From positions 1 through 42,373 of IMG/VR virus record IMGVR_UViG_3300035670_000472: a DNA stretch of 42,373 nucleotides, one strand, 5' to 3'. Numbering within the stretch: the first letter of the stretch is position 1; every line of letters begins with the position of its first letter. This stretch comes from a virus. Positions 15,540 through 41,068 of this stretch are shown piece by piece. The notes below the pieces were generated by a model. It was not told the DNA's origin, searched no databases, and was given only the letters and a program-made list of their open reading frames with translations. A program made the translations under genes and the position numbers.

Positions 15540-15593
15540 CAAGCACTTACAGAGTGCTTGACAAACCCCTTTCTGCCGTGTTATAATGACAAT
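15540..15593 (+). promoter_or_regulatory. Class 1 promoter with overlapping inverted repeat; leaderless output predicted
   Basis: CAAGCACT (15540-15547) and AGTGCTTG (15553-15560) form a perfect inverted repeat that covers the first part of the -35. The -35 is TTGACA at 15558-15563 and the -10 is TATAAT at 15582-15587, spacer 18. TGCCG, present in most of these promoters, is inside the spacer. The ATG at 15594 falls where transcription should start. Confidence 0.8.
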
Positions 15594-16043
15594 ATGATTA
15601 TTACTGGCAAAATCAATTCAACAATGCGGCAAGCACTAGAATACTATGCTTACCGTCTTTTCACGCATCAACTCTCCCGTCACATTGAAGTAAAAGTTAC
15701 CCAAAGAAAGAATTTGGGTCCTCTGCACGGCCAGGTTGGCATTGAAGACTATAATGTTCTCGGTCAACCACGCTCATTTGAAATTGAACTCCGTGCATCT
15801 GATTCCCTAGAAGATAAACTCAAAACACTTGGTCACGAAATGTGTCATGTTCGCCAGTATTGTCGTGGTGAACTCAATGAAGAAGGTAATCGTTGGCGTG
15901 GAAGAAGCATAGATATTGATAGCACATCCTATTTCGACTTACCATGGGAGAAAGAAGCAGAAGAACTAGGCATTCAACTATACAAGGATTATAAAAATGT
16001 TAGAACAACAAGAGATGGAAGAAGTGGCTCACGGAATCGATGA
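15594..16043 (+). CDS. SprT-like putative zinc metalloprotease
   Basis: 149 residues from ATG 15594. The zinc motif HEMCH (H81, E82, H85) sits in a helix after KLKTLGHEMCHVRQY, and a later acidic stretch PWEKEAEE could give the third ligand. This fits SprT or similar minigluzincin proteases. There is no leader: the ATG lies 7 bases after the TATAAT. The C-terminus (about 15 residues, Arg/Ser-rich) overlaps the next gene. Substrate unknown. Confidence 0.75.
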   Translation: MIITGKINSTMRQALEYYAYRLFTHQLSRHIEVKVTQRKNLGPLHGQVGIEDYNVLGQPRSFEIELRASDSLEDKLKTLGHEMCHVRQYCRGELNEEGNRWRGRSIDIDSTSYFDLPWEKEAEELGIQLYKDYKNVRTTRDGRSGSRNR

Positions 16044-16218
16044 TTTTTTATATGAACTTGCAGAAGAAACAGGAATGTCTACAGCAGCAGTATCAGGTAT
16101 GGTTTTGGCAAGACTAGCAAAAATGTGTGAGACTACAGATGAACTGGATAATTTTTACAAGTTATTGAATGTAGTGTCAACAAGGCGCCACGAAGCAGGA
16201 ACGACATCATTGCAATAA
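15997..16218 (+). CDS. Hypothetical protein
   Basis: 73 residues from ATG 15997 with AAGGA at about 15983; overlaps the protease gene by 47 bases. It is helical and acidic in the first half (MEEVAHGIDDFLYELAEETGMSTAAVSGMVLARL). The segment around GMSTAAVSGMVL could be a helix-turn-helix-like element, but this is weak. No clear family. Confidence 0.65.
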   Translation: MLEQQEMEEVAHGIDDFLYELAEETGMSTAAVSGMVLARLAKMCETTDELDNFYKLLNVVSTRRHEAGTTSLQ

Positions 16219-16227
16219 GGATATATT

Positions 16228-16542
16228 ATGGGAATGTTTGATGAAATTTTTTATGAACGGGAAATGTATCAGACCAAAGATACACCACAACAATCACTAG
16301 ACACCTACGAAATCCGTGGTGATGAACTTTGGTGGAAAAAGACTGAATACGAATGGGAAGATGATAAAGATTCCATGTTCGGTGGTTATATGCAAGAGGT
16401 ATCGCACGAATGGGTATTTTGCGATAGGTTCGATGGCGTTATTGACTTTTACCGTGAGAATAAAGAAGAAGGTAACAAATGGATTGAGTATCATACACTT
16501 TTTAACAATGGCCGAATGATTAAGATTGAGAGGAAAGAATGA
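16228..16542 (+). CDS. MGMFDEI-family hypothetical protein
   Basis: 104 residues with AAGGATA ribosome binding site. The opening MGMFDEIFYE is a recognisable start of small proteins common in phages and bacteria, with an alternating acidic and aromatic beta-rich body. No enzymatic motif. It is coupled to the next gene by an ATGA overlap. Confidence 0.7.
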   Translation: MGMFDEIFYEREMYQTKDTPQQSLDTYEIRGDELWWKKTEYEWEDDKDSMFGGYMQEVSHEWVFCDRFDGVIDFYRENKEEGNKWIEYHTLFNNGRMIKIERKE

Positions 16543-16727
16543 AGAACTATTGGGGTGAACCAGACGATGATGCAAGATTGCCAGATTGGATGGATCCACG
16601 CAAATGTCATCAATTCAATGAACAAAAGAAACAAAGGCAACAAAACGGCAGAGATTTGAACTCTGTTATCCAAGAATGCCTCAATAAGCCTGCTGTTCAT
16701 GTTATCATTGACAAACCAAACGAATGA
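16539..16727 (+). CDS. Small acidic-then-basic hypothetical protein
   Basis: 62 residues in a chain of ATGA overlaps on both sides. The start is acidic (GEPDDDARLPDW), followed by a basic Gln-rich helix (FNEQKKQRQQN). No domain recognised. Confidence 0.65.
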   Translation: MKNYWGEPDDDARLPDWMDPRKCHQFNEQKKQRQQNGRDLNSVIQECLNKPAVHVIIDKPNE

Positions 16728-16909
16728 AACTGTTTCTGTTCGTTCTATTGGCAGTACCGGTAAACGATTCAATGGTTGCCGTACCGAATACGCAAACGAT
16801 ACGATACTTTGAAACAATGGCCGAGTGCCATACAGAACGCAATCGCATAGAACCATCTATCGATAAAACCTATGTAAAATTGAAATGTGAAGCAATAGAG
16901 ATAAAATAA
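16724..16909 (+). CDS. Small exported-type protein with paired cysteines
   Basis: 61 residues, ATGA-coupled to the previous gene. The hydrophobic start (MKLFLFVLLAVPV) is followed by the F-E-T-MAEC motif, about 20 residues, then V-K-L-K-C-E-A-I. It shares this layout with the proteins at 514 and 25986. Likely membrane-anchored or periplasmic, with a disulfide. Function unknown. Confidence 0.65.
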   Translation: MKLFLFVLLAVPVNDSMVAVPNTQTIRYFETMAECHTERNRIEPSIDKTYVKLKCEAIEIK

Positions 16910-16911
16910 TT

Positions 16912-17220
16912 ATGAGCAAGTGCAGATATAGTACCAACTGGATGGGACCTGCTGGTCTTTGGTGGTACGAAGAACGAGGTCTACTCAACGACAAAAGAGA
17001 AATCACCGAACACTATTCTTGTGGTCGCCTCGATGTTCGTGGCGGCAACATCGAATCAATCTATGGCGATGAGATAGGTGTACCGCCAATGAGGTCTGAA
17101 GATTGGGTGACTTTTGGCGATTGGTTAAATGATTTTAGAACTGATGAAATGTGGTCACTCAAAGACATAGTAAATGAGTATGAAAAGACAAATCCAAAGA
17201 TAAGGTGGGCAAATAAATGA
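16912..17220 (+). CDS. Conserved phage hypothetical protein
   Basis: 102 residues, aromatic-rich (NWMGPAGLWWYEERG). The C-terminal part reads SEDWVTFGDWLNDFRT. Such small proteins are widespread in T4-type aquatic phages. No activity known. The stop overlaps the next start. Confidence 0.7.
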   Translation: MSKCRYSTNWMGPAGLWWYEERGLLNDKREITEHYSCGRLDVRGGNIESIYGDEIGVPPMRSEDWVTFGDWLNDFRTDEMWSLKDIVNEYEKTNPKIRWANK

Positions 17221-17537
17221 ACGAATACGCACCAGACGCATGGCAGGTCATACAAATCAGCACACCGAACGAAACGGTATATAAACTGTTTTCGACATGG
17301 TACGGAGGTTATTTGACTGGTGATGCATGGAAACTGAATTCAGGTATTGTCAGTATGAAAAAGGTCGGCAAGGTCTATGAAGTGACAGGCCATTCAGGTT
17401 CGATTTATAGAGTACCGAACCATGAGCATTGTTATTCCACTAGTGCCTATACAAATTCGGTACTTGCAAATCTCATTGAAAAGTCTGAGTATGAAATCAA
17501 AGTCCTACCCTTTGACACCGACTGGGAACACCTGTGA
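17217..17537 (+). CDS. Conserved phage hypothetical protein
   Basis: 106 residues. Beta-rich: WQVIQISTPNETVYKLFSTWYGGYLTGDAWKLNSGIV, then a short IYRVPNHEHCYSTSAY segment. The order and spacing resemble a family of small T4-type phage proteins with no assigned role. ATGA-coupled upstream and GTGA-coupled downstream. Confidence 0.7.
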   Translation: MNEYAPDAWQVIQISTPNETVYKLFSTWYGGYLTGDAWKLNSGIVSMKKVGKVYEVTGHSGSIYRVPNHEHCYSTSAYTNSVLANLIEKSEYEIKVLPFDTDWEHL

Positions 17538-17650
17538 GATATGTGCTGATGCTCATTGCAGTATTTTTAATTCTTTATACGATTGGAGATTTTTTGACTT
17601 GTTATTATATGCTAACACCCAGCAAGGCATGGTGTGAGATTTTTCTATGA
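17534..17650 (+). CDS. Very small membrane protein, coupled on both sides
   Basis: 38 residues from GTG 17534. The start shares bases with the upstream stop (GTGA) and the stop lies in the next ATGA. The sequence RYVLMLIAVFLILYTIGDFLTCYY is a single membrane helix, followed by a short tail with a cysteine. The double overlap with neighbouring genes argues that it is real. Probably an inner-membrane protein of unknown role. Confidence 0.65.
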   Translation: MRYVLMLIAVFLILYTIGDFLTCYYMLTPSKAWCEIFL

Positions 17651-17883
17651 ACACCTACGAATGGCGTGATGCCGAACACAAGGTGTCTTATTACTTTACG
17701 CAAAACACCGGCCGTATTGTAGGTCAAGTCTATAACATGGCACACACAAACATCTATGGTGCCAGAATATACAATGACCACAATGAAGAAAAGTATTTGG
17801 GGCAATATATCTCATATGACACCGCAAAGAAAGCGACTGAAGAATATTGGAACATACAGAATCGAACCCTACTAGAGAACTAA
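17647..17883 (+). CDS. Hypothetical protein
   Basis: 78 residues. Beta-rich start (YEWRDAEHKVSYYFTQNTGRIVGQVYNMAHTNIYGARIYND), then a helix (DTAKKATEEYW). Coupled by ATGA to the membrane peptide before it. Its C-terminus overlaps the following ORF by 37 bases if that one starts at 17847. Confidence 0.7.
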   Translation: MNTYEWRDAEHKVSYYFTQNTGRIVGQVYNMAHTNIYGARIYNDHNEEKYLGQYISYDTAKKATEEYWNIQNRTLLEN

Positions 17884-18122
17884 ATTATCTTATATGGGCA
17901 GTGACAAAGAAAGATTGTCTATCACCCATTGAGAAGAATGCCATCGCAAATGTATTAAGGAAACAAGCAATGAAATACTATCTTTTACACGACGGAGAAG
18001 AAATAGAGTTTCAGTCCCTAGAATCAGCCCTCACCTATTCCCGTTTTCTTGTCAATGAGTGGGCGATTAAGGACGAGAAAGGAACAATTGTATTTGATTG
18101 GGTAGATAGAGTAGGACCATAA
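17847..18122 (+). CDS. Hypothetical protein with uncertain start
   Basis: 91 residues if TTG 17847 is used; GTG 17901 and ATG 17970 are alternatives. ATG 17970 has AAGGA at a good distance and would give 50 residues beginning MKYYLLHDGEEIEF. The longer version includes a helical segment LNYLIWAVTKKDCLSPIEKNAIANVL that looks protein-like, so I keep the long form with low certainty. Unknown function. Confidence 0.5.
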   Translation: MEHTESNPTRELNYLIWAVTKKDCLSPIEKNAIANVLRKQAMKYYLLHDGEEIEFQSLESALTYSRFLVNEWAIKDEKGTIVFDWVDRVGP

Positions 18123-18133
18123 AGGAGAAGACC

Positions 18134-18316
18134 ATGAATCATATAGACCATTTGAAGTATGAAGTAGAAGTGCTCAAGACCCGTATAGAAGAACACGGTA
18201 CAGGTCATATAAAAGAAGCCATAAGACTATTAGAATCCCGTATTGAAGAACTACGCAAAGAACCTGCTGAAGTCCTAGACTCCGCATATCCTGATGGCGA
18301 TGGGTATTGGAAGTAA
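18134..18316 (+). CDS. Small coiled-coil protein
   Basis: 60 residues with a strong AAGGAG ribosome binding site. Residues 5-45 are a heptad-spaced coiled coil (LKYEVEVLKTRIEEH, then AIRLLESRIEELRKE). The end is LDSAYPDGDGYWK. The downstream homing endonuclease starts within 10 bases of the stop. Function unknown. Confidence 0.65.
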   Translation: MNHIDHLKYEVEVLKTRIEEHGTGHIKEAIRLLESRIEELRKEPAEVLDSAYPDGDGYWK

Positions 18317-18323
18317 AGATAGA

Positions 18324-19136
18324 ATGAGTAAAATCCCTCAGGAATACTATACTTGTCATGTAACTGGAGAACATCTTCATTATACTGAATTTGTTCTGGC
18401 AAAAAATGGATGGTTCGCTATTGATGGAACACGCCGTCATCCAATTTCGAAGGTGGGTAAAACAAATAATCAATCTTTAATTAATGGTCTTAGAATGAAT
18501 GTGAATGGTAAATTAGTTGCTATTTCACATTCAAAACATCCGCATCACGAAGTATACAAAAAACATATAGATGCTATACGAAAAGAAAACAATTACACTT
18601 TACCATGGCTTAGAGTAGATTTAACTAAAATAGCATATACGAGAATATATGAAGAACTCAATGTATCCCTTCCAAACTTTGAAGAATTAAACACTAAGGG
18701 GAGTAGAAAGAGCAATGGTTCAGATTCCTGTCTCGATTATCTTAAAATTCCAAATGACCGACAACATCGAGAAGTAAAGATAGGTAAATATTTCGTAGAT
18801 GGTTTAGTAAAAAATTTAGTCATTGAATACTTTGGAGACTATTTCCACGCAAATCCTTCTTTTTACGAACCCGACCAAAAGATACTTGGCAGTGTTGTTA
18901 AAGATAAGTGGAAGAAAGATGAAATGAGAATAAATGACATAAAAGAAAAAGGTTATAGTGTGATTAAGATATGGGAAAACGATTGGAACAATTTTTCTCA
19001 GAGTAAAGTCGATAATTTGCGTATAGAGTATAATAATCAAGAATATTATATAAAAGAACTGATTGATATAGAGAGAGTAGTAACCGAATTGGCAGAGAAT
19101 AGCGTAGGAATGCGAGAAAAGAGTGGGACAATATAG
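18324..19136 (+). CDS. Vsr-like (PD-D/E-x-K type) freestanding homing endonuclease
   Basis: 270 residues from ATG 18324; ATG 18294 in the same frame would overlap the upstream gene. The core (QHREVKIGKYFVDG, LVIEYFGDYFHANPS, KDEMRINDIKEKGYSVIKIWENDW) has the strand-helix order of very-short-patch-repair nucleases, with Asp in VDG and Glu in IEYFG as catalytic candidates. Proteins of this type act as homing endonucleases in phages (I-Bth0305I family). The N-terminal 80 residues may recognise DNA. Composition is more AT-rich than its neighbours, in line with mobility. Confidence 0.75.
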   Translation: MSKIPQEYYTCHVTGEHLHYTEFVLAKNGWFAIDGTRRHPISKVGKTNNQSLINGLRMNVNGKLVAISHSKHPHHEVYKKHIDAIRKENNYTLPWLRVDLTKIAYTRIYEELNVSLPNFEELNTKGSRKSNGSDSCLDYLKIPNDRQHREVKIGKYFVDGLVKNLVIEYFGDYFHANPSFYEPDQKILGSVVKDKWKKDEMRINDIKEKGYSVIKIWENDWNNFSQSKVDNLRIEYNNQEYYIKELIDIERVVTELAENSVGMREKSGTI

Positions 19137-19410
19137 GTTAAAAAGCTGTAAATTCTGTAAAAAAGACCATCGTAAAAGAGGACTTTACTGTTCCCAATCG
19201 TGTGCTAATCGTGATAGACCAGAGTATTCTAAGAAGGTCTCAGATAATATGCGTCAAGTTGCCATAGAATTCAATCGAACTCCCGAAGGTATCGCACAAC
19301 AAAAATTATTTAATACTGGCTTAGTATCTGATGATTTTGCAATTGATATACCCTCATTAGACCCTGACCTCTCTGATTATAACGATTATAATAAAGCAGA
19401 GGATTGGTAG
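19123..19410 (+). CDS. Zinc-ribbon protein coupled to the Vsr-like endonuclease
   Basis: 95 residues from GTG 19123, overlapping the endonuclease end by 14 bases. C9, C12, C23 and C27 (CKFC..YCSQSC) form a zinc-binding block of the kind fused to many homing endonucleases as a DNA-binding part. The remainder is acidic with a DYNDYN tail. It may be a split-off DNA-binding partner of the endonuclease or a separate small protein. Confidence 0.65.
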   Translation: MGQYRLKSCKFCKKDHRKRGLYCSQSCANRDRPEYSKKVSDNMRQVAIEFNRTPEGIAQQKLFNTGLVSDDFAIDIPSLDPDLSDYNDYNKAEDW

Positions 19411-19422
19411 TATAATCTCCCC

Positions 19423-19487
19423 GTAAGTAAGTAATCACTAACATAGTCCAAATAGTGCTTGACATTGTTGCCTTTTTAGTCTATAAT
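19423..19487 (+). promoter_or_regulatory. Class 1 promoter with upstream inverted repeat-like block
   Basis: A degenerate GTTAGTGA/TCACTAAC block ends at 19442. It is followed by TCCAAATAGTGC, TTGACA at 19459-19464, a 17-base spacer, and TATAAT at 19482-19487. ATG 19495 follows after 7 bases, so the product is predicted to be leaderless. Confidence 0.8.
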
Positions 19488-19494
19488 GGGTTCT

Positions 19495-19653
19495 ATGATG
19501 AAAAACGAACCTACTTTTCAAGAACTAGTCAATCTAGTGCAATTCCTTTCCCAACGCCTTCAGAAGTTAGACCAGTTTGAACCGCTGTGTCTGAATGTCG
19601 CTGAGAAAAGTGCAATAGATTTTTGTGTGAAGAACCGTAATTACAATGCGTAA
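19495..19653 (+). CDS. Small helical protein from a predicted leaderless mRNA
   Basis: 52 residues from ATG 19495 (ATGATG; the second ATG at 19498 is equally possible). It is helical with repeated Leu and Gln (FQELVNLVQFLSQRLQKLDQFE). No Shine-Dalgarno can exist because the start lies 7 bases after the -10. It overlaps the next gene by 8 bases. Function unknown. Confidence 0.65.
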   Translation: MMKNEPTFQELVNLVQFLSQRLQKLDQFEPLCLNVAEKSAIDFCVKNRNYNA

Positions 19654-19945
19654 AAAACGAAACGACCGAAACTACATCCTGTACCAGCTGACAGTTGATG
19701 ACCAGACCTACATTGGACTTACTGTGGCTGTGGGTCGTGCGTTTCTCCGAAGTGTAAAAGTGCGGGTACAAAAACACCTATCCCGTGCTAAGGTAGAGAA
19801 CAAGAACTGGTCCATTTGTGCCGCACTACAGAATGCAAATGTGATAGAATATGAGGTGCTAGAAGTTGTCCGTGGGCGTAAGAAGGCTTATGCCCGAGAG
19901 CGTGAGTTAATCTATAGTATGGAGCCGACACTCAATGATTTCTGA
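19646..19945 (+). CDS. Short GIY-YIG domain protein
   Basis: 99 residues. NYILYQLTVDDQTYIGLT gives the GIY/YIG block, and later R/H positions and REREL give candidate catalytic residues. The whole protein is little more than one nuclease domain. It may be a small resident nuclease or the remnant of a homing endonuclease. It overlaps both neighbours. Confidence 0.65.
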   Translation: MRKKRNDRNYILYQLTVDDQTYIGLTVAVGRAFLRSVKVRVQKHLSRAKVENKNWSICAALQNANVIEYEVLEVVRGRKKAYARERELIYSMEPTLNDF

Positions 19946-20075
19946 TCCGAACGAAACCCCTATGACGCCCGAAGAACAGGCTGAGATGGAAGAATATATG
20001 CTTGCGATGGGACCTCGATTCTATGGTCCTGACTTTGATGATGAAACTGGTCCTTGGTACTGGGAGAACGAATGA
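19935..20075 (+). CDS. Small acidic protein
   Basis: 46 residues from ATG 19935, overlapping the GIY-YIG gene by 11 bases and the next start by ATGA. It is acidic and rich in Met, Pro and Trp (TPEEQAEMEEYMLAMG..DETGPWYWENE). It could be an inhibitor or adaptor, but there is no evidence beyond composition. Confidence 0.55.
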   Translation: MISDPNETPMTPEEQAEMEEYMLAMGPRFYGPDFDDETGPWYWENE

Positions 20076-20287
20076 GAACCTTTAATATGAACGATTCAAT
20101 CTATACAATGATTAGTGATTTGGTCGAGGCACAATACTACGCCAACAATAATTCCTATAGTTATTCTGCTGGGTATCTGATATCAGTCCTCGAAGATACG
20201 ATAAGCCAACTCCCGAAGTCTAAGCAAGAAGCCCTGCTGAATCGATTTAATACAGAACGGCAGTTAGTCTGGGCAAAAGTTAGTTAG
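20072..20287 (+). CDS. Hypothetical protein
   Basis: 71 residues from ATG 20072, in an ATGA overlap with GGGAGA upstream. It has a helical core (IYTMISDLVEAQYYANNNSYSYSAGYLISVLEDTISQL). No family recognised. A regulatory cassette follows its stop. Confidence 0.65.
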   Translation: MRTFNMNDSIYTMISDLVEAQYYANNNSYSYSAGYLISVLEDTISQLPKSKQEALLNRFNTERQLVWAKVS

Positions 20288-20364
20288 TGTTCACTTACAT
20301 AGGGCTGTTGTATAAAAGCAACAGTCCAAATAGTGCTTGACTTTTGCCGCAATCCCTGTATAAT
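20283..20364 (+). promoter_or_regulatory. Class 1 cassette: inverted repeat, stem-loop, promoter
   Basis: GTTAGTG-TT-CACTTAC at 20283-20298 (one mismatch) is followed by a GCTGTTG/CAACAGT stem-loop at 20304-20325. Then TCCAAATAGTGC, TTGACT at 20337-20342 and TATAAT at 20359-20364 (spacer 16). GTG 20372 and ATG 20375 lie at the expected transcription start. Confidence 0.8.
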
Positions 20365-20395
20365 GGGTACTGTGATGATTGATACGGAGATTCGA

Positions 20396-20476
20396 ATGAT
20401 TGTGATTGAGATGCTTTTTCTAGTGAGTGGAATTGTTGCCCTCGCCCTGATAATGAACCCTATGGACATCGACTAA
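20396..20476 (+). CDS. Very small membrane protein
   Basis: 26 residues from ATG 20396, with CGGAG upstream; an in-frame ATG at 20375 (7 more residues) would make a leaderless start. The sequence MIVIEMLFLVSGIVALALIM is a single membrane helix. The stop shares a base with the next ATG. Probable inner-membrane peptide. Confidence 0.55.
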   Translation: MIVIEMLFLVSGIVALALIMNPMDID

Positions 20477-20655
20477 TGAACACGACCCTTCCCTCCGATA
20501 TTCTTCAAAAGAAAATTGCGAAGTTAGAACAAGAAGCTGCGATTCGTATGGCAATTGATACCTTTCTGGATTGTAATGCGGTCGAAGTGAAAGTGCGGAA
20601 GATGCGTAAACCCCGCTTCTCCGAAAAAGTGATTAATCGTTATACTGCTGCTTAA
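20476..20655 (+). CDS. Small basic helical protein
   Basis: 59 residues from ATG 20476 (TAATG overlap). A coiled-coil-like start (DILQKKIAKLEQEAAIRMAIDTFL) leads into a basic stretch VEVKVRKMRKPRFSEK that may bind nucleic acid. No family recognised. Confidence 0.65.
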   Translation: MNTTLPSDILQKKIAKLEQEAAIRMAIDTFLDCNAVEVKVRKMRKPRFSEKVINRYTAA

Positions 20656-20664
20656 GGAAACACT

Positions 20665-20913
20665 ATGCGTACCAAAGTGATTATTGATGGTCTGAAAAAC
20701 ACCCAAAAATTCCGTGCTGTTATCAATGGGGTTTTTATCGGTGATTGTCAAGTGAAAGACCTGATGGGTGCTCGATTCCCTCAACGGGAACAGCGAGTTG
20801 CTGTGTGGAATGCGTTGATGCAAGTGGCAATGCGCCGCCGTCATGGATTGCAAATGGTTGGATTCAGTACCCGCACCAACGATGGTATTGATGTCCAGGT
20901 CGACCTCGTTTAA
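20665..20913 (+). CDS. Small basic hypothetical protein
   Basis: 82 residues with AAGGA upstream. It has beta-strands in the first half (TKVIIDGLKNTQKFRAVINGVFIGDCQVKDL) and a basic helix RVAVWNALMQVAMRRRH. GC content is higher than in nearby genes. A structured intergenic element follows the stop. Confidence 0.65.
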   Translation: MRTKVIIDGLKNTQKFRAVINGVFIGDCQVKDLMGARFPQREQRVAVWNALMQVAMRRRHGLQMVGFSTRTNDGIDVQVDLV

Positions 20914-20919
20914 GAGGTT

Positions 20920-20982
20920 TTATATTGAAGTGCATTTGTAAGACATATGGGCAGAACCCGTGCTAAGTGTGCTTCAATATAA
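20920..20982 (+). ncRNA. Strong structured RNA element
   Basis: TTATATTGAAG (20920-20930) pairs perfectly with CTTCAATATAA (20972-20982), and five further pairs extend the stem inward. An inner TATGGG/CCCGTG hairpin lies in the loop. The 63-base element follows the 20913 stop and precedes a class 1 promoter. It could be a terminator-like 3' end, a processed small RNA or an RNA thermosensor; nothing more can be told. Confidence 0.45.
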
Positions 20983-20984
20983 GT

Positions 20985-21040
20985 GAGTGAGTACTGACTA
21001 TCCAAATAGTGCTTGACATTTGCCGAAAACCGTGTATAAT
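20985..21040 (+). promoter_or_regulatory. Class 1 promoter
   Basis: A degenerate repeat block, then TCCAAATAGTGC, TTGACA at 21013-21018, spacer 16 containing TTGCCG, and TATAAT at 21035-21040. ATG 21048 follows after 7 bases, then the conserved leader TGATTGATAAGGA. Confidence 0.8.
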
Positions 21041-21071
21041 AGAACCTATGATGATTGATAAGGATACGAAG

Positions 21072-21284
21072 ATGAAATACCAGATTCCTTCTTATGAAAT
21101 GTTCACCTCTGCTGGTGACCTTGCGGTTGCTGACCTTGTGACCTTCTCTAAGATACACAACCTCCAAGATACCGTGGTCCTTGCGTTAATGAGTGCGCTG
21201 TCTAAAGATGAACGATTTGGTGAGGCTACAGATACCGCAGTCCGTGAGTGCGTTGGTTCAGAATTGGGATGGTACGAAGTATGA
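21072..21284 (+). CDS. Conserved phage hypothetical protein
   Basis: 70 residues from ATG 21072, which has AAGGA seven bases upstream. ATG 21048 in the same frame would add eight residues (MMIDKDTK) and be leaderless. A helical core DLVTFSKIHNLQDTVVLALMSALS is followed by AVRECVGSELGWYEV. The stop overlaps the next start. Confidence 0.65.
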   Translation: MKYQIPSYEMFTSAGDLAVADLVTFSKIHNLQDTVVLALMSALSKDERFGEATDTAVRECVGSELGWYEV

Positions 21285-21496
21285 ACGAAGTACAAAAAGC
21301 CCAAGAACTTGCCTGGAAGGTTGGGATTTCCGGAAAGAATATGCGTGGCGACATTGAAACAAATTGGGATCAACTTATGGATTTTGCCGAGTTGATTGTG
21401 CGAGAGTGTGCTGGTGTTGGATATGAAGCATCCTATTCTGAGTGTGCGTTGAATGTCAGCAACAAGATTTTAGAACATTTTGGAGTGCAAGAATGA
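21281..21496 (+). CDS. Phage protein with FAELIVRECA motif
   Basis: 71 residues from ATG 21281 (ATGA). The FAELIVRECA segment is a signature seen again and again in short proteins of many tailed phages, with no known activity. The surrounding helices and NWDQLMDF fit the same type. ATGA-coupled to the next gene. Confidence 0.7.
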   Translation: MNEVQKAQELAWKVGISGKNMRGDIETNWDQLMDFAELIVRECAGVGYEASYSECALNVSNKILEHFGVQE

Positions 21497-32734: not shown

Positions 32735-32762
32735 GTGAACTGTTTATAAATGGAGATTTGTT

Positions 32763-34324: not shown

Positions 34325-34345
34325 CACATTTGTCTGTGTTATAAT
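34313..34345 (+). promoter_or_regulatory. Class 2 promoter (TTGCCACAA, 21 bases, TATAAT) before rnh
   Basis: TTGCCA at 34313-34318 followed by CAA, spacing 21, TATAAT at 34340-34345. ATG 34355 lies 9 bases after the -10, so the rnh mRNA is predicted to be leaderless or nearly so. Confidence 0.5.
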
Positions 34346-34354
34346 TATATCATT

Positions 34355-35203
34355 ATGATAATCTTTGACTACAATCAAGTTGCAATTTCTAATCTAATGG
34401 AACAAATCGGTTCTTCTAAAACACAAGTAGAAGAAAGTCTTGTTCGCCATATGATTTTGAATACCATTCGTACCTATGTGAAGAAATTCAAAGAATCACA
34501 TGGGCCTGAAGTTGTGATTGCTTGCGACAATAAAAACTATTGGCGCCGTGATATCTTTTCCCATTACAAGGCAGGTCGTAAGAAAGCTCGTGAAGCATCT
34601 GGTCACGACTGGAATACAATCTTTGAATGCCTCAATAAAATTCGTGATGAGTTGCGTGACCATTCTCCTTACAAAGTAATTACTGTTGATACTTGTGAAG
34701 CAGACGATATCATTGCCACACTCACTATGAAATATTCGGCAACGCAAAAGATTATGATTCTTTCCTCTGACAAAGACTTTGCTCAGTTGCAGAGATATCC
34801 GAATGTTGAACAGTATTCACCAATTCTGAAAAAATACATCAAAGAACCTCTGCCGTTGTTGCAGTTGAAACAGTTAATTATTCGTGGTGACAAAGGCGAT
34901 GGCATTCCTAACATTCTTTCAGCCGATGATGTGTTTGTTGTTGGTGGTCGACAGAAACCAATTACTGAAGCGAAGATTATTGGTTGGATGAATCAAGACC
35001 CAAAAGAATTTTGCAATGAAGACATGTTTCGTAATTTTGTTCGCAACGAAACATTGATTGACCTCACCAAAATTCCTGAGCGTTTGTCTACAGAAATACT
35101 ACATACCTATGATAATTCTTCTGGCCACACAAAGCAAGAATTTATGAATTATATGATTGCAAACCGACTAAAAAATTTAATTGAGGTTCTTAATGATTTC
35201 TGA
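34355..35203 (+). CDS. rnh: RNase H / 5'-3' exonuclease (T4 Rnh-like)
   Basis: 282 residues. The acidic metal-binding blocks of the FEN/T4 RNase H family are visible: FDYN at the start, CDNKNYWRRD, CEADD near residue 110, SSDKDF and RGDKGDG. In T4 this enzyme removes RNA primers and flaps during lagging-strand synthesis. The middle (HYKAGRKKAREAS) resembles the arch or clamp region. The start has no Shine-Dalgarno and stands at the presumed transcription start. The next gene overlaps by 11 bases. Confidence 0.85.
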   Translation: MIIFDYNQVAISNLMEQIGSSKTQVEESLVRHMILNTIRTYVKKFKESHGPEVVIACDNKNYWRRDIFSHYKAGRKKAREASGHDWNTIFECLNKIRDELRDHSPYKVITVDTCEADDIIATLTMKYSATQKIMILSSDKDFAQLQRYPNVEQYSPILKKYIKEPLPLLQLKQLIIRGDKGDGIPNILSADDVFVVGGRQKPITEAKIIGWMNQDPKEFCNEDMFRNFVRNETLIDLTKIPERLSTEILHTYDNSSGHTKQEFMNYMIANRLKNLIEVLNDF

Positions 35204-35615
35204 CATTCTATATTCTGAAATTTTTGCTGAGTTTGATAAAGCAAAGAACAAGGCAGAAAGAATTGCTGTTCTACGCAAATACGACCATCCAAGATTTCGT
35301 GAATTTCTAAACTATGCATTTAATCCACACATCAAATTCGATGTTGTGGTTCCAAAATACCGGGAAGCAGTAGAACCCGCTGGTCTTAACTTTGCCTATC
35401 TAAGTTCTGAAGTACCAAAACTCTATCGATTCATTCAGAATCATCCAATGAGAGCTGAGGGTCTTTCAGAAACGAAGAAGACATCATTGCTCGTTGTCCT
35501 CTTAGAGTCTCTACACAAAGATGACGCTGCCTTGCTCGTCAAACTTTTCAAAAAAGATTTAGGCGTTAAACATCTAACATTGAATTTGGTACTAGAAGCA
35601 TTTCCTGGCATTTGA
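35193..35615 (+). CDS. Conserved T4-type phage hypothetical protein
   Basis: 140 residues from ATG 35193, overlapping the rnh end. Helical (ILYSEIFAEFDKAKNKAERIAVLRKYDHPRFREFLNYAF), then AGLNFAYLSSEVPKLYRFIQNHPM and a C-terminal helix. Common in T4-type aquatic phages near replication genes. The context with rnh suggests a replication-associated role, but this is not shown. Confidence 0.7.
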   Translation: MISDILYSEIFAEFDKAKNKAERIAVLRKYDHPRFREFLNYAFNPHIKFDVVVPKYREAVEPAGLNFAYLSSEVPKLYRFIQNHPMRAEGLSETKKTSLLVVLLESLHKDDAALLVKLFKKDLGVKHLTLNLVLEAFPGI

Positions 35616-35616
35616 T

Positions 35617-36033
35617 ATGAAGATTGTTGTTTGTTCTGGCGGATTTGATCCTATTCACTCTGGTCATATTGCTTACTTTCGTGCAGCGAAACGACTAGGT
35701 GATGTTCTTGTTGTTGGCGTAAATTCTGATGAATGGTTGACAAGAAAAAAAGGTAAACCGTTTATGCCTCTACAAGAACGACTAGAAATTGTTCAGGCAA
35801 TTAAATATGTTGATTACACTATGAAATTTATCGATGATGATGATTCGGCAAGACATCTGATTAAAAATGTAAAGTTGATGTGGCCGAATGATGAAATACT
35901 TTTTGCAAACGGTGGCGACCGCAACGAAACGAACAATCGTGAATCAGATGTTACTGGTGTATCTTTTGTTTTCGGTGTTGGTGGTTCGCACAAGATGAAT
36001 TCTTCCTCTGAAATATTGAAATCATGGAAATGA
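35617..36033 (+). CDS. Cytidylyltransferase-like nucleotidyltransferase
   Basis: 138 residues. CSGGFDPIHSGHIAYF holds the HxGH nucleotide-binding motif (H14 and H17), typical of cytidylyltransferases such as TagD or the C-terminal half of HldE. VVGVNSDEWLTRKKG, then MPLQERLEIVQAIKYVD, matches the family core. It would activate a sugar or polyol phosphate with CTP or ATP. The neighbours are sugar enzymes, so it fits a nucleotide-sugar pathway. Exact substrate unknown. Confidence 0.8.
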   Translation: MKIVVCSGGFDPIHSGHIAYFRAAKRLGDVLVVGVNSDEWLTRKKGKPFMPLQERLEIVQAIKYVDYTMKFIDDDDSARHLIKNVKLMWPNDEILFANGGDRNETNNRESDVTGVSFVFGVGGSHKMNSSSEILKSWK

Positions 36034-36782
36034 AAGTTGCGGTTGTAACACCTACAATTGGTGCAGGTACACTTGGTCATTGTATTGAATCTGTTCAGAA
36101 TCAGACTTACGAAAATTTAACTCATTATATTTTTTTAGATGGTAAAGAACACTATGAAAAAATTTATCCTATTCTTTATGAGAAATCTGGTAAGAGAACA
36201 ATTCGAACAGTTGAATTAGAAGACAATGTTGGAAAAGGTTGGTATGGCCATCGTGTCTATGCTGCATGTTCTTTTCTTGTAAATGCCGACATCATTTGTT
36301 ACCTAGATGAAGACAATTGGTATCAACCGTGCCATGTTCAAAAACTTGTCGATACAATCAAAAGTGGCAATGATTGGGCATATTCACTCAGAAAAATCTA
36401 TGACAAAGAAGGCAACTTTCTTTGCGAAGACAATTGCGAATCACTCGGCAAATGGCCAGTCTATTTCAATCATACCGTGCATCATATTGATACATCCTCG
36501 TTTGCAGTAAAGAGAGATGTTGCCGTCCAAATTGGTCACGCATGGTATGGTCAATGGGGAGCAGACAGACAATTCTTTTCAAACATATCAAAATTTTTTC
36601 CAAAGTTTGATTGCACAAATGCACACACACTCTGTTATCGTTTAGATGGCAATCCAAATTCAGTAACAAAAGAATTCTTTGACGAAGGAAACAAACACAT
36701 GCAAAATAAGTATGGTGAAGAATTTCCTTGGAAAACAAAAAAATTGGCACAAATCGCACCGGGAGTTTCAATTATAGCATGA
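36030..36782 (+). CDS. Glycosyltransferase family 2-like
   Basis: 250 residues from ATG 36030 (ATGA; ATG 36024 also possible). The GT-A fold start is VAVVTPTIGAGTLGHCIESVQNQTYENL, and ICYLDEDNWYQP (D93-E94-D95) carries the metal/nucleotide-sugar DxD motif. The rest has HIDTSSFAVKRD and a W-rich region. It would transfer a sugar from an activated donor. ATGA-coupled to the next gene, so it belongs to the sugar module. Acceptor unknown. Confidence 0.8.
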   Translation: MKVAVVTPTIGAGTLGHCIESVQNQTYENLTHYIFLDGKEHYEKIYPILYEKSGKRTIRTVELEDNVGKGWYGHRVYAACSFLVNADIICYLDEDNWYQPCHVQKLVDTIKSGNDWAYSLRKIYDKEGNFLCEDNCESLGKWPVYFNHTVHHIDTSSFAVKRDVAVQIGHAWYGQWGADRQFFSNISKFFPKFDCTNAHTLCYRLDGNPNSVTKEFFDEGNKHMQNKYGEEFPWKTKKLAQIAPGVSIIA

Positions 36783-37279
36783 AGGTACAAAACACAGAAT
36801 TGGCTGGAGTTTTACTCATTACGCCTCCAGTAATGCACGAAGATTTTCGTGGTACAAATACAGAAGTTTACAATGATGCACTCTATCGTAAAAGTGGCAT
36901 CAAACACGATTGGGTATTAGATTCAATCAGCACATCTCGTAGGCATGTGCTTCGTGGTTTGCACGGTGATGACCATACGACAAAACTTATTTCTTGTTTG
37001 TATGGCAGTTTTTATTTTGTTGTTGTAAATAATGACCCAACACATCCACAATACCGTCAATGGGAATCTTTCACACTCTCAGATAAAAATCGATTGCAGG
37101 TTCTTGTGCCGCCAAAATTTGGTAATGGTCATCTTGTAATGAGTGACCATGTTGTGTTCAGTTATAAGTTGGATGCATACTATGATAGAAACAGTCAATT
37201 TACAATTAAGTGGAACGATCCAGACTACAATATTTGGTGGCCAATCAGAAGACCTATTCTTTCCGAAAGAGACAGTTAA
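36779..37279 (+). CDS. RmlC-like dTDP-sugar 3,5-epimerase (cupin fold)
   Basis: 166 residues from ATG 36779 (ATGA). RGLHGDDHTTKL contains the catalytic His region of RmlC-type epimerases (H62, with K69 near by). Strands such as SCLYGSFYFVVVNND and VLVPPKFGNGHLVMSDHVVFSYKLDAYYDR fit the cupin barrel. It probably epimerises a dTDP-4-keto sugar. It is a little shorter than typical RmlC (about 180 residues). Confidence 0.8.
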   Translation: MKVQNTELAGVLLITPPVMHEDFRGTNTEVYNDALYRKSGIKHDWVLDSISTSRRHVLRGLHGDDHTTKLISCLYGSFYFVVVNNDPTHPQYRQWESFTLSDKNRLQVLVPPKFGNGHLVMSDHVVFSYKLDAYYDRNSQFTIKWNDPDYNIWWPIRRPILSERDS

Positions 37280-37286
37280 AAGAAGA

Positions 37287-38225
37287 ATGAAAACTGCTCT
37301 GATTACCGGTGTGTCTGGTTATCTTGGTTCGCATCTTGCCAAATCATTGAAGAAGGCAGGATGGAAAGTTGTCGGCATTGATAAGAAATATCCAAAAAAC
37401 GAATATGTTGACTTGTTTCAAATTGGTGACATTACTGAACAAGAACCACTCGTTAACACTTTTCGAAAAATAAGAATTGATGCCGTATTTCATCTTGCCG
37501 GTAGAATCGAAGTTTGCGAATCAAATAAAAATCCAATTGAGTTCTATCGAAACAATGTGAACGGTACAATCAATGTTCTAAATGCCATGAAAACATTTGG
37601 CGTAGATAAAATCATCTATTCGTCTACGGCTGGTGTTTACAAGACAAAGAATGAACCAATCACAGAAATTGACGAAGTGAACCCATTCAACAATCCATAC
37701 TCAGGAAGTAAGTATTGTGCAGAGATGGCAATTCGTCAATCAGGAATCAAACACATCATTTTTCGTTATTTCAATTTGGCAGGTGCAGACCCCGATGGTG
37801 AGTTTGGTGAATGTCACGAACCAGAGACTCACCTGATTCCGAGAATTCTGCAAAATCTAAATAGTTTTGAAATTTATGGTGAAGACTATGAAACGCCAGA
37901 TGGCACATGCATTCGTGACTATGTTCATGTTTCAGATGTTGCCGATGCACACATTCTTGCCGCAGAAAAACTGAAAGAAAACTCTGCCATAATTAATTTG
38001 GGAACGGGTAAAGGACATTCGGTAAAAGAGATTATTGAAATTGTCGGTGAGGTTGCAAACAGACCGGTAGGTTATTCTTACAAACCTCGCCGACAAGGTG
38101 ACCCACCTAAATTAGTTGCCGATATTAATTCTGCCAAAAATCTATTGCAATATCAGCCAAGACATGATATAGTATCTATTGTTCAAACTGCATACAACTG
38201 GCAACAATCACAAAATGACAAATAA
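37287..38225 (+). CDS. galE: UDP-glucose 4-epimerase-like SDR enzyme
   Basis: 312 residues from ATG 37287. TGVSGYLGSH is the NAD-binding glycine motif. The catalytic triad region is present: SSTAGVY and YSGSKYCAE (Y-x3-K). FRYFNLAGADPDGEFGECHEPETHLIPRILQ and GTCIRDYVHVSDVADAH are typical of GalE. It interconverts UDP-glucose and UDP-galactose or similar. Together with the cytidylyltransferase, GT2 and RmlC-like proteins it forms a sugar-modification module. Confidence 0.88.
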   Translation: MKTALITGVSGYLGSHLAKSLKKAGWKVVGIDKKYPKNEYVDLFQIGDITEQEPLVNTFRKIRIDAVFHLAGRIEVCESNKNPIEFYRNNVNGTINVLNAMKTFGVDKIIYSSTAGVYKTKNEPITEIDEVNPFNNPYSGSKYCAEMAIRQSGIKHIIFRYFNLAGADPDGEFGECHEPETHLIPRILQNLNSFEIYGEDYETPDGTCIRDYVHVSDVADAHILAAEKLKENSAIINLGTGKGHSVKEIIEIVGEVANRPVGYSYKPRRQGDPPKLVADINSAKNLLQYQPRHDIVSIVQTAYNWQQSQNDK

Positions 38226-38781
38226 AAAAGACATGGATTTCGTTTCGGCATCAGACCGTATTTCTTCTAGTCTATTAGATAACCACATACATTTTATCTA
38301 TGGTGACATTGAAGAAGCAAACACACTCGATGCCATCCATTGGATTACCTATGAGAATCTTCAACCTGGAGATTATCCGCTAACACTCTACATCAATTCT
38401 GATGGTGGGTCATTACAAGATGCTTTCGCTCTTATCGATGTGATGCGTAAGTCAAACAAACCTGTTCACACAATTGGACTTGGTTCTGTTTGTTCATCCG
38501 CATTTTTAATATTTGCTTCTGGTACAAAAGGATATCGTTACATCAGTCCTACTGCATCAATCATGTGCCATCAATACACCGATGGTCTAACAGGCAAGTA
38601 CCATGACATTAAAGCAACGGCCAAAGAACACGACCTCATCAACAAACGAATGGTCAATCTTTTCAAAGAGTGTACCGATTTAAGTTTACAACAAATAAAC
38701 AAAAAACTTTTGCCGGCAAGTGACGCCTACTTTACGGCTGAAGAATTAATCGAACTAGGCGTAGCGGACCATATCTTCTAA
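38215..38781 (+). CDS. clpP: ClpP-like serine protease
   Basis: 188 residues from ATG 38215, overlapping galE by 11 bases. Catalytic triad by alignment to ClpP: S94 in GSVCSSAF, H119 in MCHQ, D170 in SDAYF. The core YINSDGGSLQDAFALIDVM and ISPTASIMCHQYTDGLTGKYHDI are clear. No ATPase partner is visible. Phage ClpP proteins may act in capsid maturation, or work with host ClpX/ClpA. A missing signal peptide means cytoplasmic action. Confidence 0.88.
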   Translation: MTNKKDMDFVSASDRISSSLLDNHIHFIYGDIEEANTLDAIHWITYENLQPGDYPLTLYINSDGGSLQDAFALIDVMRKSNKPVHTIGLGSVCSSAFLIFASGTKGYRYISPTASIMCHQYTDGLTGKYHDIKATAKEHDLINKRMVNLFKECTDLSLQQINKKLLPASDAYFTAEELIELGVADHIF

Positions 38782-38801
38782 GGAGGTTTTCAAAAATAGA
38801 C

Positions 38802-38957
38802 ATGTTACAAGGTGGCAAGAAATATCAAAAAACGGTCAAGACTAAATTCAAAAAGAACCGTGACAAAGAAGGCAGTAAACATTTCGATAAAAACAGGCAT
38901 CACGATAAATCTTTTTATCGTTTAGCAAAAGAGGAAAAAGAAGACTATGTCCTATAG
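38802..38957 (+). CDS. Small very basic protein
   Basis: 51 residues from ATG 38802. Basic and hydrophilic (KKYQKTVKTKFKKNRDKEGSKHF, then FDKNRHHDKSFYR). AAGGAGG is 15 bases upstream, rather far, so the start is not certain. Probably nucleic-acid binding. Overlaps the next gene by 11 bases. Confidence 0.6.
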   Translation: MLQGGKKYQKTVKTKFKKNRDKEGSKHFDKNRHHDKSFYRLAKEEKEDYVL

Positions 38958-39114
38958 AGAAGAATTGAAGGCAAAGATTCGTGACCTAGAAAAAAAGATT
39001 GCAAAAGACGAAACCGAAAAATTGCAATTAGAGATTGAGTTGAATAAACTGAAATTGGCAGAATTTGAAGAAGATATGAAAGAATCTGCCGAACAAAAAC
39101 TACTCAAAGGATAG
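38947..39114 (+). CDS. Small coiled-coil protein
   Basis: 55 residues from ATG 38947. A clear coiled coil: YREELKAKIRDLEKKIAKDETEKLQLEIELNKLKLAEFEED. Overlaps the basic protein by 11 bases, so the two may be co-translated and could pair. A class 1 cassette follows. Confidence 0.65.
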   Translation: MSYREELKAKIRDLEKKIAKDETEKLQLEIELNKLKLAEFEEDMKESAEQKLLKG

Positions 39115-39168
39115 TGTTGTTTTTATGCAACAGTAGTGCTTGACAAATGCCATAACCTCTGTTATACT
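39115..39168 (+). promoter_or_regulatory. Class 1 cassette with stem-loop and promoter
   Basis: TGTTG/CAACA stem-loop (39115-39132) with loop TTTTTATG, then AGTGC, TTGACA at 39140-39145, spacer 17, and TATACT at 39163-39168. ATG 39176 lies 7 bases after the -10. Confidence 0.8.
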
Positions 39169-39175
39169 TGGGGTT

Positions 39176-39595
39176 ATGGAAATCTTAAAAGAAGTCACTC
39201 AATGGGATGTCGAATATCGGCAACCTAATCACACCTATTTGGTTAATAATAAAAACCAAATTGTCGCATATGCCAAATGGCATTCAAATGAGATTATGTT
39301 ATTCAAATCTCGTACCACACTTAATACTCGGTATCGTAAATTTGAAAAATCAAATCACAAGGCATTATCAAAATTAATTAAACAATTTGCCTCAGAAGAT
39401 AAACAAACCGAAAAGAAAGAAAAATATATTCGGCCTAATTATGTTCGTTTATTCAAAGTAAATTCAAAAGGCAAAGATTATATTGTCGAATATAATGCAA
39501 AAGTAAAACAAGTAACCTGCCCTTGTATTGGTTTCGGTTATCGTAGAAAATGCAAACACTCAGATGCTGTATTTAAGTTAGTGAACACTCACTAA
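39176..39595 (+). CDS. SWIM-type zinc finger protein
   Basis: 139 residues from ATG 39176, at the transcription start and so predicted leaderless. C115-P-C117 and C126-K-H128 give the CxC..CxH SWIM motif at the C-terminus (VTCPCIGFGYRRKCKHSD). The N-terminal part is a beta-rich domain (LVNNKNQIVAYAKWHSNEIMLFKS). SWIM domains bind DNA or proteins. The end of this gene overlaps the inverted repeat of the next cassette. Confidence 0.75.
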   Translation: MEILKEVTQWDVEYRQPNHTYLVNNKNQIVAYAKWHSNEIMLFKSRTTLNTRYRKFEKSNHKALSKLIKQFASEDKQTEKKEKYIRPNYVRLFKVNSKGKDYIVEYNAKVKQVTCPCIGFGYRRKCKHSDAVFKLVNTH

Positions 39596-39641
39596 CATAC
39601 TCCAAAAAGTGCTTGACATTCCTGCCGACTTGTAGTAATAT
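39577..39641 (+). promoter_or_regulatory. Class 1 cassette: perfect inverted repeat over the stop codon, then promoter
   Basis: GTTAGTGA (39577-39584) and TCACTAAC (39589-39596), 8-bp arms with a 4-base spacer, contain the SWIM gene stop codon. Then TTGACA at 39613-39618, spacer 17, and TAATAT at 39636-39641. The leader has TGATTGATATGGA before ATG 39671. Confidence 0.8.
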
Positions 39642-39670
39642 TGTATTTGTTGATTGATATGGAGATTGTT

Positions 39671-39985
39671 ATGAAGAAATTTGCGATTTTTCAGTTACCC
39701 TTTGAACACGACAAAATGCGTGATTTGTATTTTATGGAACCAAGTGAGATTGAATCGCTTAGTGATGAATTCGAATTCGTTGCTCAAATTGATGCACGGT
39801 CGCTTGATGAGTGTTTTCGAATCGGTAATTTCGTTTGCGCTGCCGATGAACCTCTCCGCCAAGTAGTTGCTGAGGGAATGCGTAGTATCTCGACCGGAGA
39901 TATTGTGCAAGATTTAGAAACCGATGAGACATTTGTTTGTATCGCTCACGGTTGGGAAAAAATCAATATGAAGGAGTGTGCATAA
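39671..39985 (+). CDS. Hypothetical protein
   Basis: 104 residues from ATG 39671 with TGGAG upstream in the conserved leader. Mixed alpha-beta (MKKFAIFQLPFEHDKMRDL, EFEFVAQIDARSLDECFRIGNFV). No family recognised. The next gene starts in its last codon. Confidence 0.65.
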   Translation: MKKFAIFQLPFEHDKMRDLYFMEPSEIESLSDEFEFVAQIDARSLDECFRIGNFVCAADEPLRQVVAEGMRSISTGDIVQDLETDETFVCIAHGWEKINMKECA

Positions 39986-40311
39986 TGATTGACGGACTGA
40001 ATGATTATCTGGATTATATTCGCAAAGACTATGCACGGTGGATGGGACAATCGCCTACCGAAATTCGCATTCGTATGACCGAAGAATTTCAACAGTCGGT
40101 CGGTTTTGAAGTTGGCTCAAAGTATATCAAAGTTTATGCTGGTGCCAATCAACGCTCTGTCCACTCGTTCATCTGCCTGAAAGATAATGGTAAATTCAAA
40201 AGGGGTGACATTCTGAAGGCCGCTGGTTGGTCTGCACCTGCGAAGAATTTTGCTCGTGGTAATGTAATCACGAAACAATATGGACAAACTACTTGGACTG
40301 GAGCGATGTAA
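39985..40311 (+). CDS. Conserved T4-type phage hypothetical protein
   Basis: 108 residues from ATG 39985. The C-terminal part SFICLKDNGKFKRGDILKAAGWSAPAKNFARGNVI is a recognisable phage pattern. The N-terminus is helical (DGLNDYLDYIRKDYARWMGQSPTEIRIRMTEEF). Role unknown. TAATG overlap with the next gene. Confidence 0.75.
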   Translation: MIDGLNDYLDYIRKDYARWMGQSPTEIRIRMTEEFQQSVGFEVGSKYIKVYAGANQRSVHSFICLKDNGKFKRGDILKAAGWSAPAKNFARGNVITKQYGQTTWTGAM

Positions 40312-40502
40312 TGAATAAAATTAATGGTTTTGTTGTTGTTGCGACTGCCGACAACATTTCAAAAATGACAAGTGAAGAAATTAGTTTATTGGCAGATTTG
40401 TTGTCTGATGTTACAAATGGTGCGAAACTGGCTGATGCAATTTCGTTTTCGATACAAGACAAAGATTATGCGAATGTCGAAGTCCAAGAGGCGGTGTGCT
40501 AA
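40311..40502 (+). CDS. Hypothetical protein
   Basis: 63 residues from ATG 40311 (TAATG). Beta-alpha start (NGFVVVATADNISKMTSEEISLLADLLSDV). No domain seen. One base separates its stop from the next gene. Confidence 0.6.
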   Translation: MNKINGFVVVATADNISKMTSEEISLLADLLSDVTNGAKLADAISFSIQDKDYANVEVQEAVC

Positions 40503-40503
40503 T

Positions 40504-40653
40504 ATGATGAGATTCATTTTTGGTTTACTTTTAGTTTTCGGTGCGGTCGGTGGTATGGATGCCGATCCTGAAGGTGTTAACTTTGCCGCACAAATGTCCA
40601 TTGCCATGTTAGGATTGATTCTAATGTTTTTCGGCACAAGGAGAATGAGATGA
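40504..40653 (+). CDS. Small membrane protein
   Basis: 49 residues from ATG 40504. Two hydrophobic helices (FIFGLLLVFGAVGGM and MSIAMLGLILMFFGT) joined by DADPEGVNFAA. Similar short proteins are common in aquatic phages. ATGA-coupled to the next gene. Confidence 0.65.
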   Translation: MMRFIFGLLLVFGAVGGMDADPEGVNFAAQMSIAMLGLILMFFGTRRMR

Positions 40654-40988
40654 TAATTTACACACACCAAAAATCTAAAAAACGCAAACCAAATGCAAAA
40701 CAAAAAGAATTGGCTGCTGATTGGCAACAATTAGTGGCAAAACATTTACCAAAAACGATGTTGCCAAAACCAGACATTCAAAAAGTATTTCCTTCTGCAC
40801 CCAAACCTTTTGTGCGACATACAAAATATATTGAATCTTTGGTTACCGGCTATTATAATACTTTTCGAAAACCAGATATGCGATATACTGGCGACAAAAT
40901 GAAAGGTATTGGCACATTGCATAAATCAAATGCGGTGCCTATTTTTACTGATGAAGAAGCAAAAGACCAGGCAACAATGCGCCGATAA
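40650..40988 (+). CDS. Conserved phage hypothetical protein
   Basis: 112 residues, basic at the N-terminus (HQKSKKRKPNAKQKELAADW) and ending with RYTGDKMKGIGTLHKSNAVPIFTDEEAKD. The pattern is familiar from small T4-type phage proteins with no assigned function. Confidence 0.65.
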   Translation: MIIYTHQKSKKRKPNAKQKELAADWQQLVAKHLPKTMLPKPDIQKVFPSAPKPFVRHTKYIESLVTGYYNTFRKPDMRYTGDKMKGIGTLHKSNAVPIFTDEEAKDQATMRR

Positions 40989-40991
40989 TAT

Positions 40992-41068
40992 GTTAGTGAG
41001 TATTCACTAACTTGTGTTGTTTTTAGGCAACAATAGTGCTTGACAAGTATGCCGTTTCGTGTTATAAT
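40992..41068 (+). promoter_or_regulatory. Class 1 cassette: perfect inverted repeat, stem-loop, promoter
   Basis: GTTAGTGA (40992-40999) and TCACTAAC (41004-41011) with a GTAT spacer. TGTTG/CAACA stem-loop at 41015-41032. TTGACA at 41040-41045, spacer 17, TATAAT at 41063-41068. The most complete copy of the cassette in the window. Confidence 0.85.

Follow-up and report, generated by a model that had tools for sequence, protein, structure and literature searches.

The 42,373-base window analyzed here, which is the entire IMG/VR virus record IMGVR_UViG_3300035670_000472, carries nine strong promoters dispersed among its genes, and they raise the question of what kind of element has been repeated so often and which protein, besides RNA polymerase, might read it. 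Beyond the promoters noticed in an earlier, sequence-only reading of this DNA, we observed an upstream 20-base-pair (bp) palindrome, a TGTTG-N8-CAACA stem-loop and, in several copies, the leader TGATTGATAAGGA. The explanation we favor, with somewhat more confidence than doubt, is that these are mobile early cassettes of a T4-type phage, similar to the promoter-early stem-loop (PeSL) cassettes reportedly described in T4-type phages by Arbiol in 2010 and Comeau in 2014, with a TetR-type operator that is probably read by a host protein, SlmA being the leading candidate.

Nine near-consensus promoters

The nine promoters are real and lie far above chance expectation. Each was located in the sequence where the sequence-only reading had placed it, on the + strand and with a spacer of 16-18 nucleotides (nt), with -35 hexamers beginning at 15558, 19459, 20337, 21013, 25215, 32706, 39140, 39613 and 41040 and downstream genes beginning at 15594, 19495, 20396, 21072, 25276, 32763, 39176, 39671 and 41103, respectively. 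The sequence AGTGCTTGAC was found eight times on the + strand of the window and never on the - strand, with 0.055 expected in Markov shuffles. Near-perfect promoters numbered 10 on the + strand and 1 on the - strand, compared to an expectation of approximately 0.9 for each strand; the promoters at 1249 and 33525, both among the ten, were without a cassette. The latter is a perfect TTGACA-17-TATAAT promoter at 33525-33553, inside gene 32763, with none of the cassette parts.

Three boxes call for a correction of the sequence-only reading: the -35 hexamer at 20337 is TTGACT, and the promoters at 39140 and 39613 have TATACT and TAATAT as their -10 boxes. A TGCCG word, reported earlier from most spacers, was present in six of the nine (TGCC in eight), and we give it little weight because its position in the spacer varies and the word is over-represented on the whole + strand of the window (58 observed, approximately 20 expected). 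The strong sigma70-type promoter that belongs to the definition of a PeSL is thus represented in these nine near-consensus copies, for which early timing is predicted. The ATG codons of genes 15594 and 39176 lie only about 7 nt past the -10 box, so that, with these starts correctly called, their early messenger RNAs would have almost no leader.

A palindrome that reads as a protein site

Six of the nine cassettes carry the palindrome 5' of the promoter, at 19423, 20279, 25169, 39577 and 40992 and, in degenerate form, at 20983. Its consensus, from 277 unique instances, is GTWAGTRAGYRCTYACTWAC. Complementarity between symmetric positions was hardly ever above that of shuffled pairs across these instances, and at the variable positions it was below. 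Because the arms do not covary, the palindrome reads as a DNA site for a protein, as predicted from its sequence, and not as an RNA hairpin; the hairpin and terminator interpretations were rejected on this ground.

The palindrome is common in freshwater phages that are not related to one another. It was found in at least 118 viral stretches, and 95 of the 116 that were fetched also fit a stricter pattern. This stricter pattern was observed in only 10 stretches within 257 billion bases of bacterial and archaeal genomes, and a relaxed pattern stayed at control level in 121 genomes of the family of a beta-proteobacterial bin (G050), save for one phage-like contig. A host repeat was rejected, as the palindrome is nearly absent from bacterial genomes. 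No mention of the exact palindromes was found in the papers searched.

In small phages the palindrome forms clusters of 1-4 copies between diverging operons upstream of terminase genes, with the copies mostly 22-23, 28-30 or 37-39 bp apart. A role as packaging site, considered for its position beside the terminase genes, conflicts with the many early-promoter copies in T4-type contigs. The absence of the palindrome from Limnohabitans phage DC31, and from what has been sequenced of MW202483 and DSL-LC05 (terminase identity to the small phages 67-77%), indicates that it is gained and lost. Rhizobium phage B1VFA (66297-66370) carries a related palindrome, GTAAGTAAGTGCTTACTTAC, and a near copy flanking a possible promoter, in what looks like a repressor-type arrangement.

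The control regions of the small phages with palindrome clusters (loci L026-L141) hold other sites as well. Perfect NtrC-type boxes (TGCACC-N5-GGTGCA) were observed 14 times in 10 of these loci and not at all in shuffles, together with a few Fur-box-like sites, as if several host-type operators had gathered in one control region. Neither NtrC-like nor Fur-like boxes were found at the window cassettes. We also observed GP88-family orthologues behind a cassette of the window (41103-41822) and near palindrome clusters in unrelated small phages (L039, L040, L044, L071, L073, L094, L105 and L113), where no cassette stands directly upstream.

Candidate readers of the palindrome

In seven of the ten bacterial palindrome matches the gene immediately downstream encodes a TetR-family protein, and several of the seven are close to efflux genes. 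For six of these seven TetR proteins SlmA was among the top four NCBIfam matches, and the seventh matched nothing; for the single TetR protein tested against solved structures, SlmA was the best. The published SlmA site is GTGAGTACTCAC (PMC3116907), and this 12-bp core lies within the center of the 277-site palindrome consensus. In the bacterial family searched, a candidate host family, 37 of 41 genomes have a protein that passes the SlmA cut-off. The recognition helix VSEAALYRHF was present in the two SlmA sequences read from this family, and that of the solved SlmA is nearly the same (VSEAALYRHF), of the E. coli type.

A shared phage-encoded regulator was considered and rejected, as no regulator gene common to the palindrome-bearing phage groups was found and no TetR_N domain was detected in 38 phage records. 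Since the site, but no TetR gene, is common to unrelated phages, these comparisons make a TetR-family protein of the host the likeliest reader. SlmA is the leading candidate among such proteins, as suggested by the core and the gene context, with other candidates remaining. The 20-mers GTTAGTGAGTATTCACTAAC and GTAAGTAAGTAATCACTAAC are named as candidate SlmA ligands beside the E. coli consensus. Among the papers listed for SlmA and phage, none dealt with SlmA sites in phages.

Spacing and possible mode of action

Palindrome centers are mostly located about 26, 36-38, 46-51 or 56-58 nt 5' of the -35 box, which corresponds to positions near -61, -72, -82 and -93. The palindrome center of the copy before gene 19495 lies 26 nt 5' of its -35 box, as measured on an identical copy (L004). 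When copies more than 85% alike were merged, the distance between operator and promoter showed a period of 10-11 bp (p 0.0007). Class I activators such as CRP sit at such positions. The spacing of the palindromes is as for class I activators and may indicate activation as the mode of action. SlmA directly activates one V. cholerae promoter, without CRP-like contact (PMC5519180). Multicopy SlmA sites block division (PMC3573117), and phage-borne sites could therefore act likewise. The closest proven precedent for a host regulator acting in this way is CtrA, which regulates unrelated Alphaproteobacteria phages via sites in phage promoters (PMC9437464).

Weighing the reader

Several observations count against SlmA as the reader, or against its activating from these positions. 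The period is marginal when redundancy is cut at 80% (p 0.04 measured to the -10 box, 0.17 to the -35 box) and not significant at a 72% cut. Window palindromes depart from the strict SlmA core at 1-4 of its 12 bases (e.g. GTGAACACTCAC), and the bacterial TetR proteins behind the palindrome score below the SlmA cut-off. A related palindrome occurs in a Rhizobium phage, and to our knowledge rhizobia are not known to have SlmA. Activation by SlmA in V. cholerae was independent of helical phase (PMC5519180), and a reporter in E. coli was unaffected by SlmA sites placed 5' of it (PMC3573117). Finally, chromosomal SlmA-like core sites were enriched in only one genus of the family searched, and they lack the outer bases of the phage 20-mer. 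This lack of the outer bases favors a host TetR-family regulator other than SlmA, for example an efflux-pump controller whose signal the early genes would then share, and so does the occurrence of the full 20-mer, outer bases included, before non-SlmA TetR genes, several of them beside efflux genes. We regard such a reader as rather unlikely, as the rarity of the exact 20-mer in bacterial genomes argues against the site of a widespread regulator and SlmA is the only near-universal TetR-like protein in the family searched.

Alternatively, the phages themselves could encode the reader as a protein that does not belong to the TetR family, for example a small regulator made early or a protein of replication or packaging. 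The palindromes are phage-specific and adjoin terminase genes in the small phages, and small proteins can escape notice in phage records that are all partial; however, the phage groups sharing the site have only tail, lysis and GP88-type proteins in common, 38 phage records yielded no TetR_N domain, and a packaging role is at odds with the copies at early promoters, which makes this reading improbable. Least probable, and in our estimate very unlikely, is that the palindrome is a mere stem-loop interchangeable with the TGTTG type, which in an ordinary PeSL would end transcription or be a target of recombination. Perfect copies do fold well as RNA (-9.6 and -9.3 kcal/mol) and the cassettes without a TGTTG stem-loop mostly carry a palindrome, but the one at 19423 fails to fold (-0.9 kcal/mol), most copies have no U-tract behind them, and over the 277 instances it is the sequence and not the pairing that is kept. 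A host-read TetR-type operator, with SlmA as leading candidate, is the reading carried forward below.

The TGTTG-N8-CAACA stem-loop

The TGTTG-N8-CAACA core was observed at 20306, 32681, 39115 and 41015, with a slightly shorter version at 25192, and lies between palindrome and promoter or stands without a palindrome. Stem-loops of any type adjoin six of the nine promoters, as the PeSL definition asks, and the remaining three have a palindrome only; all nine cassettes thus have at least one inverted repeat 5' of the -35 box or reaching into it. In nearly all instances the loop begins with Y and ends with R, giving the core TGTTGY-N6-RCAACA.

Compensating changes in the outer stem were observed among three phages at the 32763 locus (CCTGAC/GTCAGG in the window, TAG/CTA in G009 and CCTGCC/GGCAGG in G032), which argues that pairing matters at this stem-loop. 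No general complementarity of the flanks was found across 139 cassettes from viral contigs. No U-tract follows the window stem-loops, and a terminator scan of 24000-42373 called no TGTTG stem-loop, termination in that scan being predicted from sequence only.

At least 120 stretches of viral contigs (among them L208-L323) have the core 5' of a consensus promoter. The phages concerned differ widely in G+C content, and a few of the stretches have the T-run that would make a normal terminator. We found no clean helical period in its distance to the promoter. As a host site it was rejected, since counts in 61 bacterial genomes were of the same order as for a reversed control and the bacterial matches listed lacked the A-tract center. 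This promoter cassette is a second phage-wide element without an assigned function.

Lineage and movement of the cassettes

The source of the window is a freshwater virus of bacteria, T4-type by its gene content. The T4-type assignment follows from gene 34355, which has a 5'-3' exonuclease domain and a T4 RNase H C-terminal domain, and from gene 32763, homologues of which were found in Caulobacter phage Cr30 and Sinorhizobium phiM12, which we take to be T4-type, among other phages. One record (G002) is 99.98% identical to window 1-26038, and the relatives, at increasing distance from the window, are G003, G009, G032, G010, G012 and G016; the viral records compared are mostly partial. Megablast of window 15000-22000 against the phage collection gave no match, and BLAST of the cassettes gave no convincing cultured relative.

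The sequence-only reading had made its case depend on the motif recurring in relatives, and the motif is present in many related contigs. The order of palindrome, stem-loop and promoter is preserved in diverged contigs, and single cassettes come and go. The cassette before gene 21072 is wholly missing at the orthologous place in G003, where the orthologue directly follows the neighboring gene. The arrangement of the window is reversed in G009, whose 39671 orthologue is preceded by a cassette with a stem-loop and whose 41103 orthologue by one without. In G032, DNA comparison detected no match for the stretch that the flanking cassettes enclose (window 39086-40874). Before the 25276 orthologue the cassette is present in two contigs (G012 and L007) and not in three others (L022, L130 and L097). 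PeSLs are multi-copy elements that shuffle, and the gain, loss and swap seen in G003, G009 and G032 is what recombination would produce; the pattern fits a spread and exchange of cassettes via recombination between dispersed copies. Dispersed copies of PeSLs are described as recombining in this manner (PMC4503421).

The proposal that the cassettes are a PeSL variant with extra parts consequently stands in part. Dispersed sigma70-type promoters, stem-loops at block boundaries and the turnover among relatives support it; the stem-loops, however, are unlike the intrinsic terminators that are part of the PeSL definition, and the putative TetR-type operator had been missed.

Organization of the individual cassettes

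Two cassettes combine a full palindrome with a TGTTG-N8-CAACA stem-loop. Cassette 3 (20279-20364, + strand, as are all nine) has a palindrome with one mismatch at 20279-20298, a stem-loop at 20302-20327 (-16 kcal/mol), the -35 box TTGACT at 20337-20342 and a -10 box at 20359-20364, and cassette 9 (40992-41068) has its palindrome at 40992-41011, stem-loop at 41015-41032, -35 at 41040-41045 and -10 at 41063-41068. Cassette 5 (25169-25243) is similar, with a palindrome at 25169-25188, a short stem-loop at 25192-25207 (-4.7 kcal/mol), -35 at 25215-25220 and -10 at 25238-25243.

No stem-loop was observed in cassette 2 (19423-19487; palindrome 19423-19442, -35 19459-19464, -10 19482-19487) or cassette 8 (39577-39641; palindrome 39577-39596, -35 39613-39618, -10 TAATAT at 39636-39641), and cassette 4 (20983-21040) has the degenerate palindrome at 20983-21002, with -35 at 21013-21018 and -10 at 21035-21040. 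The palindrome is lacking in cassettes 1, 6 and 7. Cassette 6 (32675-32734) has a long stem-loop at 32675-32704 (-20.6 kcal/mol; core 32681-32698), -35 at 32706-32711 and -10 at 32729-32734, and cassette 7 (39115-39168) a stem-loop at 39115-39132, -35 at 39140-39145 and the -10 box TATACT at 39163-39168. The stem-loop of cassette 1 (15539-15587), at 15539-15561 (-12.8 kcal/mol), is unlike the others in that its 3' arm is the extended -35 itself (-35 15558-15563, -10 15582-15587).

Elsewhere in the window we observed seven consecutive tRNA genes (28056-28695), an open reading frame on the opposite (-) strand at 3431-4156 with a NUMOD3 motif, probably a homing endonuclease, and a periodic 66-bp repeat (30340-30603) within an open reading frame (29740-31263) that has no PHROGs or Pfam match.

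Proposed model and comparison with known systems

In the model we propose, the near-consensus promoter of each cassette would recruit host sigma70 RNA polymerase, and in six of the nine a stem-loop stands at the end of the upstream gene block. The putative TetR-family-type operator 5' of the promoter, also in six of nine with one degenerate, is backed by its conservation and its bacterial context. A host protein, perhaps SlmA, a TetR-like nucleoid-occlusion protein, would occupy it and, bound near -61, -72, -82 or -93, may tune early transcription from the same DNA face. Copy-to-copy recombination would spread and swap the whole.

We also put forward, tentatively and as possible rather than probable, that unrelated freshwater phages independently acquired SlmA sites, the T4-type phages at the class I positions of shuffling cassettes and the small phages as tandem arrays in a divergent control region. 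Phage early transcription would in that case be tied through SlmA to the host's state of division, and SlmA bound to multicopy phage DNA would keep the host from dividing. If the model above is right, CtrA would be joined by a second case of a host cell-cycle or stress regulator that lytic phages read via their own promoter sites, and it would show how such a switch can multiply within a genome as one component of a shuffling cassette. The use of host nucleoid occlusion by a phage to keep the cell undivided would also become directly testable.

Compared to PeSLs, the window cassettes are likewise small and dispersed, with a strong sigma70-type early promoter and a stem-loop between gene blocks, and they too are gained, lost and swapped among relatives. 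They differ in adding a putative 20-bp TetR-type operator and in stem-loops that have a fixed core, lack a U-tract and are not recognizable terminators. The T4 early promoters share the near-consensus -35, TGn and -10 elements for host polymerase and are described with UP elements and no operator (PMC2988021), whereas the window cassettes carry a conserved AGTGC before the -35 box and a putative upstream operator. The SlmA sites of E. coli and V. cholerae have the palindromic core of the phage consensus, GTGAGTACTCAC, and a TetR-family reader, the type of protein that is predicted for the phage sites; the phage sites differ in being 20 bp long with conserved outer bases and in standing at phage promoters, with binding predicted only. 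The CtrA sites (PMC9437464) are similar in that the sites of a host cell-cycle regulator are concentrated at promoters of unrelated phages, but they involve another protein family and other hosts, and the binding and regulation that are proven for CtrA are for the window cassettes a prediction.

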